From Rossellomorea marisflavi (GTDB lineage Bacteria > Bacillota > Bacilli > Bacillales > Bacillaceae_B): DNA of 64,000 nt. The notes under the pieces were generated by a model. It saw nothing but the letters and a program-made list of their open reading frames with translations, had not been told where the DNA came from and ran no database searches. Of the stretch, positions 12,476 through 59,798 are shown piece by piece; the first letter of the stretch is position 1, and every line of letters starts with the position of its first letter. The stretch lies in the NCBI RefSeq assembly GCF_009806575.1, contig NZ_CP047095.1:3166001-3230000 (forward strand), in the 5' to 3' direction. The translations under genes and the position numbers were made by a program.

Positions 12476-12720
12476 AAAAAAGCCCCTGCACAAATATGCA
12501 GGGACGCTGTTCGCGCGGTACCACCCAAATTAAGGACAAGCTGTCCTTCACTCTTTTGAAATAACGGCTCTTACCGTTTGCTGCTACTTGGGTTCACAAC
12601 AAAAGCTCCGGGAGGTAATTCGTCTGCGTGCCGTGCCGATTTTCACCACCCATCGGCTCTCTGGCTGTTACGGAAAACACAAACTACTCGTTCCCATCAT
12701 TGCCTAACATTTTTCATTCA
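12476..12720 (-). promoter_or_regulatory. Tyrosine-specific T-box riboswitch leader of tyrS
   Basis: Read on the minus strand, the conserved T-box sequence GGGTGGTACCGCG occurs at about 12514-12526. It is followed by a terminator stem, CCCTGCA/TGCAGGGG, and a T-run (12476-12503). A stem I region with GAGAGCCGATGGGTGG-type sequence lies near 12645-12665. A UAC tyrosine codon at 12617-12615 lies in the expected specifier position. Uncharged tRNA-Tyr should favour the antiterminator. Confidence 0.9.
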
Positions 12721-37465: not shown

Positions 37466-37598
37466 GTCAATCACTCTTTCCTTCATACTTACTATCATTC
37501 TATCAGTTCACCGGAAAAATTCGAGACATTTCACCATAAAATGAACATTGTTAGAAAAATGTGTCGAAACCAACATCCATGTAAATAGAATGTAACAA

Positions 37599-38102
37599 GA
37601 AAAGCGCAGGGGGCTTGCCCTGAGGCGACAAGCATAAGGCGAAGATCTCGGAAAGGCGTTCTGTGCCTTTTTGAGATCTTTGACTTATGACCTCGAGCCT
37701 TAAGCACCCGGAGCTGGACATGAAGAAAAGCGGAGGCGGGTTGGGCTGACCCGACAAGCATAAGGCGAAGGCACCGGAAAGGCGTTCTATGCCTTTTTGG
37801 GGTCTTTGACTTATGACCTCGAGGGGCAACCCGCCGGAGCTGGACATATAGAAAAGCGCAGGGGGCTTGCCCTGAGGCGACAAGCATAAGGCGAAGGCAC
37901 CGGAAAGGCGTTCTGTGCCTTTTTGGGATCTTTGACTTATGACCTCGAGCCTCAAGCACCCGGAGCTGGACACGAAGAAAAGCGGAGGGGGCTCGACCTG
38001 AGGCGACAAGCATAAGGCGAAGATCTCGGAAAGGCGTTCTTGGCCTTTTTGAGATCTTTGACTTATGACCTCGAGCCTCAAGCACCCGGAGCTGGACATG
38101 CA
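37599..38102 (+). repeat. Array A: four tandem 126-bp structured repeat units
   Basis: Units start at 37599, 37725, 37851 and 37977, each exactly 126 bp. Each begins GAAAAGCG and ends near CCGGAGCTGGACA. Constant parts include GACAAGCATAAG and CTTATGACCTCGAG, whose CATAAG/CTTATG can pair. Variable arms change in matching fashion: GGCGGGT with ACCCGCC in unit 2; TGAGGC with GCCTCA in unit 4; AAGATCTC with GAGATCTT in units 1 and 4. The period is a multiple of three, which leaves long open frames of no biological meaning. Lies between sftA and ytpR. Confidence 0.9.
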
Positions 38103-38131
38103 GAAGATCGAAAAGATTCATCAACCAAACA

Positions 38132-58089: not shown

Positions 58090-58444
58090 CCTAACACCTG
58101 CTCTATATGTAATAGTTTCGTTCCCTCCCATTTTATACTGTTTGCCTTCTAAAACCAAACAGGAACAACAAGAAAATCCTCAGCAATATACATGTTTTTT
58201 CATACACAAACATATTCTAGAACCAATCCCATCCATTTAAATGGATGGAATCGAACAATTCCCTAGATATTTTTCTGGAATAGCGTTACAATATAGTTGT
58301 CTGACATTTCAAATTTAAAAATGACCCGGAACGGCGGTCAACACAAAAGGGGTTGTCTAAAGCGCTTAGTACATAGGTAGCACGTGTGGTGCACAGTTGA
58401 CACTGTAGTCTTTGCCTTTGGAATAATGATGAGGGAGTGGTTTT
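58090..58444. other. Intergenic region between pepV and ytzE, with a 20-bp palindrome
   Basis: No gene is seen. A perfect 20-bp palindrome, CCATCCATTTAAATGGATGG, lies at 58229-58248. A TTGACA lies near 58402 with a poorly spaced -10, and AGCGCTT occurs near 58362. The promoter for ytzE should be here. No other feature is clear. Confidence 0.5.
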
Positions 58445-58666
58445 TTGAAACCTTCAACCAATCGTATGCTAACTAGAATCAAGGCTGTATACATGTACAT
58501 CAATAAGAAAGGTACAGTAACAACTCAAGATCTTGTAGACGAATTTGGCATTACTCCACGCACCATACAAAGAGATCTCAACGTATTGGCCTACAACGAC
58601 CTGGTCGAAAGCCCAAGCCGGGGGCACTGGACCACAACCACCAAAAAAGTAAAAATGACAAGTTGA
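58445..58666 (+). CDS. ytzE: YtzE, short DeoR-type helix-turn-helix protein
   Basis: The 73-residue product is a lone DeoR-like winged helix (MKPSTNRMLTRIKAVYMYI, then TTQDLVDEFGITPRTIQRDL) without an effector domain. The sequence is close to B. subtilis YtzE. A TTG start at 58445 follows GAGGGAG. The DNA target and function are unknown. Its stop is 5 bases before the structured repeat array B, so the array would form its 3' untranslated region. Confidence 0.92.
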   Translation: MKPSTNRMLTRIKAVYMYINKKGTVTTQDLVDEFGITPRTIQRDLNVLAYNDLVESPSRGHWTTTTKKVKMTS

Positions 58667-58671
58667 TTATA

Positions 58672-59263
58672 GAAAAGCGGAGGCGGGTCGATCTGACCCG
58701 ACAAGCATAAGACGAAACCCCCGGAAAGGCGTTCCTTGCCTTTTCGGGGGTTTTGGCTTATGACCTCGAGGGGCAACCCGCCGGAGCTGGACACATAGAA
58801 AAGCGGAGGGGCTTGGCCCTGAGGTGACAAGCATAAGACAGAAATCCCGGGAAGGCGCCCTTTGCCTTTTCGGGATTTTTGGCTTATGACCTCGAGCCTC
58901 AAAGCCCCGGAGCTGGACATATAGAAAAGCGGAGGCGGGTCGATCTGACCCGACAAGCATAAGACGAAACCCCCGGAAAGGCGTTCCTTGCCTTTTCGGG
59001 GGTTTTGGCTTATGACCTCGAAGGGCAACCCGCCGGAGCTGGACACATAGAAAAGCGGAGGCGGGTCGATCTGACCCGACAAGCATAAGACGAAACCCCC
59101 GGAAAGGCGTTCCTTGCCTTTTCGGGGGTTTTGGCTTATGACCTCGAGGGGCAACCCGCCGGAGCTGGACACATAGAAAAGCGGAGGGGCTTCGCCCTGA
59201 GGCGACAAGCATAAGACAGAAATCCCGGGAAGGCGCCCTTTGCCTTGTCGGATTTCTGGCTTA
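58672..59263 (+). repeat. Array B: four full and one truncated 126-bp structured repeat units
   Basis: Units start at 58672, 58798, 58924, 59050 and 59176; the first four are exactly 126 bp and the last stops at about 59263. They are the same family as array A. Units 1, 3 and 4 are nearly identical (one base differs in unit 3). Units 2 and 5 are a second variant. The outer arms swap together: GGCGGGT/ACCCGCC against GGGGCTT/AAGCCCC. The inner arms swap too: AAACCCCCG/CGGGGGTTT against AAATCCCG/CGGGATTT. The array is in the same orientation as ytzE. Confidence 0.9.
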
Positions 59264-59798
59264 TATCGAGAAGTACAATCCGATCCTTTATTTGCGACTT
59301 TTTGTTGTTACAGGCGATCGTAGTGGATTGTTTGTAAACCTCCCCATTATTAAAGCAATATGAAAGGCCGAATGGTGTCAAATTCCCCAATCGACATAAA
59401 ACGACTTTCTTCGCACTCACTTTTTGAGGATTTTCTCTTCCTTCCCACCAAACTCAGAGCCTGAGAACAACCTTACTTGCGAATTCAAAAGATTTATTTT
59501 CGACTTTTCTGAATTTATTTGTGGCATTTTAAATTTTATTTGCGAATGACTTTTGCCGGGCCCTTTCTATTTGCGATTAACCGCCCTTACGTACGAAACC
59601 GTTCTTTAATCTACCATTCACCTGCACGAACGTACGATACTCCCGACTCCCCTGTCCTCTCCACGCTTCGTGTTCGTGCACGACCAACACACACATTCCT
59701 TCGCCACTAATTTGCCGGGCATACTTGTTTCTCACTTCACGTTTATCAACTCCTGCGTTCTACATGTATACCAGCCATGCATCCACTCCCTCACGAAA
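59264..59798. other. Intergenic stretch downstream of array B
   Basis: I see no gene in this 530-base stretch. ATTTGCGA occurs at 59290, 59538 and 59569, with CTTGCGA at 59476; CGTACGA occurs twice near 59590 and 59632. The base composition changes between AT-rich and balanced parts. Purpose unknown. Confidence 0.5.

Follow-up and report, generated by a model that had tools for sequence, protein, structure and literature searches.

The BOX repeats of S. pneumoniae, together with RUP and SPRITE, are described as small intergenic repeats that can fold if transcribed; BOX is composed of tandem modules whose number varies between strains, its present rate of movement is given as low, and in 36 CDSs a BOX repeat supplies the 3′ end and the stop codon (PMC3049150). 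The bcr repeats of the B. cereus group are described as intergenic, partly MITE-like and often located in UTRs and operons, some of them with conserved secondary structure (PMC3446304). REP and REPIN sequences, which go with RAYT genes, are dispersed palindromes (PMC3733652). Tandem repeats of constant size and varying sequence are reported from Bacillus, with main sizes of 52 and 20–21 nt and no mention of hairpin, stem or palindrome in the text searched (PMC8161180), and a list of 104 structured RNAs names Bacillaceae-1 (PMC2864571).

Here, we show that two arrays of 126-bp units in a 64,000-nt window of the Rossellomorea marisflavi genome are not a local RNA gene but members of a large, dispersed mobile family that extends across many Bacillus-related genera. 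By analogy, this is most likely a mobile structured-repeat family of the same kind as the BOX repeats of pneumococcus or the bcr repeats of B. cereus. As far as the published descriptions can be compared, it shares with BOX an intergenic location, multiple copies, foldability, tandem units of varying number, low present movement and placement at gene 3′ ends; with bcr, compared by description and not by sequence, it shares intergenic location, a partly MITE-like character and structure. It differs from both in breadth, in repetition of the whole unit and in its one-sided ends. BOX consists of boxA, boxB and boxC modules and bcr is described for the B. cereus group, whereas the present family repeats an entire folded unit, spans many genera of an order and includes incomplete copies that lack the 3′ side, with no target-site duplication established. 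Its constant size and varying sequence also recall the Bacillus tandem repeats.

The original prediction held that all full units of both arrays are exactly 126 bp and differ in matched pairs of stem arms, so that they would form a structured RNA or DNA element under selection for its fold. Tandem Repeats Finder confirmed a period of 126 at both sites, 37597–38105 (4.0 copies) and 58669–59251 (4.6 copies), and the arm pairs that had been quoted are present in the sequence as written. The exception to the matched differences is unit A3, the fourth stem of which combines a left arm like that of A2 with a right arm like those of A1 and A4, leaving two mismatches. The fixed length applies to the full units of both arrays, but not to the genome at large: in the 23 arrays of R. 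marisflavi, adjacent hits are spaced by 126 in only 22 of 41 intervals, and by 122–128 in the other 19, except for two of 100 and 419. The last unit of array B stops after about 95 nt. Array B starts 5 nt past the TGA of a small frame encoding a DeoR-like protein; array A, unlike array B, has no sense frame with a stop codon at its start. Antisense frames of 197 and 205 codons cross the arrays, and we rejected a protein-coding reading because unit lengths of 123–128 nt in other arrays break any shared frame.

Table 1. Repeat units and adjacent frame in the window (array A, 37599–38102, four units; array B, 58672–59270, four units and one 3′-shortened unit)
Feature	Position	Strand	Basis
Array A, unit A1	37599..37724	+	Tandem Repeats Finder and sequence reading
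Array A, unit A2	37725..37850	+	Tandem Repeats Finder and sequence reading
Array A, unit A3 (fourth stem broken)	37851..37976	+	Tandem Repeats Finder and sequence reading
Array A, unit A4	37977..38102	+	Tandem Repeats Finder and sequence reading
Array B, unit B1	58672..58797	+	Tandem Repeats Finder and sequence reading
Array B, unit B2	58798..58923	+	Tandem Repeats Finder and sequence reading
Array B, unit B3	58924..59049	+	Tandem Repeats Finder and sequence reading
Array B, unit B4	59050..59175	+	Tandem Repeats Finder and sequence reading
Array B, last unit, 3′ side missing (model positions 1–99)	59176..59270	+	Sequence reading
Small DeoR-like helix-turn-helix frame before array B	58466..58666	+	Open frame 58433–58666; start codon not settled

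Each unit forms one long hairpin that starts with GAAAAGC and ends with GGAGCTGGACA plus a short linker, and contains two fixed internal loops, GGA/GGA and GACAAG/ACCTCGA, with variable stems between them. For six + strand units the fold z-scores lay between −3.1 and −6.5, and in no case did any of 200 shuffles fold as well; the single minus strand that was folded also scored well (z −5.5). In a MAFFT alignment of 63 diverse units, from which the structure itself was derived and for which the pair controls leave common descent in, 26 of 37 pairs showed changes on both sides, 365 cells were double-changed as compared to 122 after shuffling and at most 104 with slid partners, 95.8% of cells paired as compared to 79.7% after shuffling, and none of 500 shuffles reached any of five covariation measures. 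The corresponding values for 147 distinct units, which came mostly from other genomes, were 94.9% pairing, 35 of 37 pairs and 1146 double-changed cells, obtained by alignment to the model, which leans towards that model. Compensatory changes in the helices, the mark of a structured RNA, are present in both alignments. When pairs with a wobble as their commonest state are left out, G-T exceeds A-C by 38 to 12 among the 63 units and by 105 to 20 among the 147, and therefore the + strand is the strand that folds. As a side observation, L170 in the sister species (G043) carries short variants of the unit that lack the inner hairpin and are joined at CGACAATACCCTCGAG.

Three of the pairs are mostly G-T (45, 47 and 50 of 63 units), which bears on whether mobile machinery is needed at all. 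Copying between the arms of palindromes is known in general, and units recombine freely inside arrays, so that arrays might arise and spread by homologous recombination alone, their arms covarying as each copies the other. Arm copying would remove wobbles, yet these three pairs have kept them; the internal loops are constant and unmatched, G-T exceeds A-C, and recombination by itself does not place units behind unrelated genes. We consider this explanation highly improbable.

The family is widely dispersed. BLAST detected 59 matches in 23 arrays of the R. marisflavi genome (G000), and in a first search 22 of 24 relatives of the genus contained 29–62 matches each, two (G009 and G011) had none, and 3 of 16 genomes of other genera had a match. 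A covariance model (R1), applied with strict filters and to no more than 11 candidates per genome, detected the family in 84 of 116 genera and in 220 of the 299 genomes sampled from the order. Sampling of the class gave 41 matching genomes out of 299, 19 from the same order (R. marisflavi itself included) and 22 from others, 20 of the latter belonging to one family. An exact core pattern occurred, among the matches listed (80 of at least 120 stretches), in records of Rossellomorea, Jeotgalibacillus, Siminovitchia, Peribacillus, Cytobacillus, Neobacillus, Metabacillus, Gottfriedia, Sutcliffiella, Heyndrickxia and others. These covariance-model and core-pattern matches bear out the earlier remark that similar sequences occur in other Bacillaceae. 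Phages and plasmids were rejected as the main route of carriage: blastn with unit B1 returned no phage record and one plasmid record, and the exact core pattern one viral contig.

The search of Rfam that had been proposed as a check assigned the arrays to no family. With the whole window as query at the gathering threshold nothing matched over the arrays, and a search of 58600–59300 with E up to 10 returned 20 rows, all under gathering scores and without RF01690; membership in an Rfam family such as Bacillaceae-1 (RF01690) was thus rejected at the gathering score. The one Rfam match in the window at this threshold is a T-box leader at 12497–12709 on the minus strand (140 bits). Text searches of open-licence PMC papers found no description of this repeat. 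The original prediction had named a match to a known transposable element, with ends that explain the palindromes, as grounds for abandoning it; no such match was found, yet the idea of a mobile element behind that reservation was largely right. Both the fold and its covariation are real and strong and recur in many genera, but they do not reveal a conserved RNA at these two sites; each unit is one copy of a mobile family that is dispersed.

Mobility is evident from occupied and empty sites, as expected of a MITE. Arrays lie directly behind the stop codon at 2 of 30 orthologous loci of mnmA, 12 of 30 of a YhcN-like lipoprotein gene and 11 of 30 of the gene preceding array B, and units in both directions occur within 1.45 kb downstream of ytpR, the neighbor of array A, at 9 of 30 loci. 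The clearest pair is L298 (G003), with two units after the stop codon, and L299 (G042), with none; their flanks are 93.6–94.9% identical and show no obvious target loss. Alignment of the G021 and G001 locus gave a clean left side and differing right flanks. All 23 sites of R. marisflavi are occupied, by units or part of one, in sister species G043 as well, and thus no recent movement is seen there. The number of full units nevertheless differs at 15 of the 20 sites compared between these species, and at L004/L159 a single unit carries different arms, showing that the sites are old and that the units turn over fast.

Covariation across the family had been taken as strong evidence of selection on the fold, and for copies fixed in place this holds only in weak form. 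Among 19 of 31 orthologous unit pairs, those with identity of about 0.92 or more, 24 base pairs were broken by one change as compared to 31.4 expected without constraint (P about 0.02) and 15 were kept as compared to 10.3 expected (P 0.08), outcomes affected by unit exchange and by the identity cut. In the same pairs, 15 new G-T stood against 5 new A-C, and paired positions changed about half as fast as unpaired ones (0.032 as compared to 0.070). Lowering the cut to 0.88 raised the number of unit pairs to 22, in which base pairs were broken 31 times, kept through one-sided changes 19 times and kept through double changes 9 times; the stricter cut had dropped three pairs with 8 double-kept changes and therefore works against compensatory changes. 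Upkeep of the fold in fixed copies is weak, not strong, which is in keeping with a fold that serves chiefly in spreading and leaves room for a role in the host.

Such a role could also account for where the arrays are found. From 211 deduplicated arrays we left out 72 that came from ortholog searches with chosen neighborhoods, and 8 of the remaining 139 lacked a 400-bp flank, leaving 131. Of these, 38 start between −3 and +6 nt from the stop codon of a sense frame 100 codons or longer, compared with one array in the following 10-nt bin and one whose 3′ end falls in the corresponding bin relative to an antisense stop; the independent stop-adjacent sites are fewer than this count, because some arrays are orthologous (e.g., L008, L010, L032). 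Frames of at least 70 codons gave 45 of 131 arrays at −3 to +6 nt as compared to 0–4 at nine shifted positions, and frames of at least 50 codons 49 as compared to 1–14. The contrast narrows when all stops within 60 nt are counted (53 sense and 23 antisense, at least 70 codons). A terminator follows the array in 8 of 38 stop-adjacent cases, 7 of 93 others and 2 of 126 control stretches by a strict scan, and in 11 of 38 and 10 of 93 by a looser one. The pair L298/L299 had suggested insertion before host terminators that resemble the unit start, which was not borne out: a match of at least 6/7 to GAAAAGC opens the terminator in 2 of 8 stop-adjacent and 1 of 7 other arrays and in 40 of 302 background cases. 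Separately, arrays L029, L312 and L313 start a few nucleotides behind the 3′ end of a putative tRNA gene.

Sense orientation directly after stop codons, the terminators that follow some arrays and, in orthologous copies, the shortfall of broken pairs, the surplus of G-T over A-C changes and the slower change of paired positions would suit a structured RNA selected by the host. In that case + strand RNA within 3′ UTRs or between cistrons would protect the ends of mRNAs, act as an insulator between genes or serve as a protein-binding site. In B. cereus, transcripts with bcr3 repeats are described as having a longer mRNA half-life (PMC3446304). The patchy occupation of orthologous genes (2, 12 or 11 of 30 genomes), the free variation of unit number and arm type between sister species, and the 24 pairs broken in 19 orthologous unit pairs argue against this, as does the orientation of 11 of the 23 R. 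marisflavi arrays, which are antisense to both neighbors. We therefore consider selection by the host unlikely as the main explanation, without regarding it as negligible.

The ends of the copies are one-sided. In four genomes (BLAST matches of 59, 50 and 79), 39 of 188 matches lacked the 3′ part, defined by a start at 6 or lower and an end below 115, and 2 of 188 lacked the 5′ part. Scoring for a partial unit at the 3′ terminus gave 90 of 138 arrays, as well as 15 control stretches lying 200 nt beyond; this score overstates real partial units because some, as at the array-B locus and L298, are partly host sequence resembling the unit start. At the 5′ end, among the 93 arrays away from stop codons, the unit is immediately preceded by A or C in 83, and the next base upstream is A or T in 82. 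The right flank often begins like a unit. Other short repeated motifs were noted behind arrays, TTTCGCCC-like in G021 (L379) and ATTTGCGA-like in the window at about 59280–59600. A fixed 5′ end, a variable 3′ end and a folding + strand favor one-ended copying of the + single strand.

The same ends could be read from the opposite strand. If a SINE-like retroposon produced a minus-strand RNA ending at the terminator-like CTTTTC and inserted at A-rich sites by target-primed reverse transcription, truncation on the 3′ side of the + strand would be the usual 5′ truncation of the RNA, and one constant and one variable end, the A-rich start and the tandem units would all be expected. The wobble asymmetry, on the other hand, indicates that it is the + strand that folds. 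PF00078 (RVT_1) gave 43 matches in 15 of 31 genomes of the genus and none in the other 16; the present-day R. marisflavi genome is among those without a match, although a reverse transcriptase may have been present in the past, and in 30 loci fetched from the 43 matches no unit lay within 1.5 kb. A retroposon origin thus seems quite improbable.

A REP-like element served by a chromosomal RAYT (Y1 transposase) would be consistent with the folded single strand, on which such enzymes act, and with the dispersed palindromes; PF01797 (RAYT-like) gave 80 matches, present in all 31 genomes of the genus. The units, however, are about 126 bp long and do not begin with GTAG or CGTC as compared with REP/REPIN (PMC3733652), and none was found within 1.5 kb of the RAYT-like gene in 30 loci fetched from the 80 matches. 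The RAYT-like genes of R. marisflavi and G043 (L338, L326) are followed by other, tandem palindromes, GGTGCCAGGCAC, which are perhaps the repeats proper to that gene. We consider service by this RAYT improbable. An autonomous partner was not found among the 30 PF01797 and 30 PF00078 loci of the genus, and both enzymes were rejected as partners on the lack of linkage in the loci fetched.

We think it probable that the units represent copies of a mobile element that is non-autonomous and intergenic, measures about 123 bp plus a short linker, and spreads as a folded + single strand by machinery acting in trans. The + strand would fold into the long hairpin with its fixed internal loops, and this folded single strand, either RNA or single-stranded DNA, would be recognized by the spreading machinery. 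Mainly copies that keep the fold would then spread, from which covariation across the family would follow. A new insertion would start at GAAAAGCG behind an A/T-rich site, often in sense orientation just past a stop codon, and would extend over one or more units before ending at a variable 3′ position. Unit number and arm type would then be altered by recombination between units, and old copies would decay slowly. In this picture the fold and its covariation, the strand asymmetry, the dispersal, the occupied and empty sites, the constant 5′ and variable 3′ ends, the adjacency to stop codons and the turnover of units are observed; the single-stranded intermediate, one-ended copying and an enzyme acting in trans are inferred.

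A second structured repeat of about 124 nt, TTGATTGGAGCGGAAGG...CCTGGAGCGGAAATCAA, which we call element 2, gave 37 hits in 31 loci (L110, L106, L284, L175, L230 and others), 21 of them near full length, and has a GGA/GGA motif near its ends similar to that of the 126-bp unit. In several genomes a 126-bp unit lies inside element 2 (L112, L105, L107, L296, L302). These composites appear, tentatively, to be absent from G003, as suggested by BLAST anchors 97–148 nt from the array; global alignments of L296/L297 and L302/L305 were poor. It is conceivable, though rather unlikely, that the 126-bp family is a new kind of bacterial mobile element, in which a folded + single strand is copied one-endedly from a fixed unit start to any point and directed in the sense orientation behind stop codons by an enzyme unlinked to known transposons or retroelements, and that element 2 could share this machinery.

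Annotation, genome assembly and transcript models are all affected by a structured repeat that Rfam lacks and that occurs in most of the genera sampled in a large bacterial order; for annotation, the effect is illustrated by the long antisense frames that cross both arrays. Moreover, one-sided placement after stop codons, together with constant 5′ and variable 3′ ends, provides clear predictions on how small bacterial repeats move.
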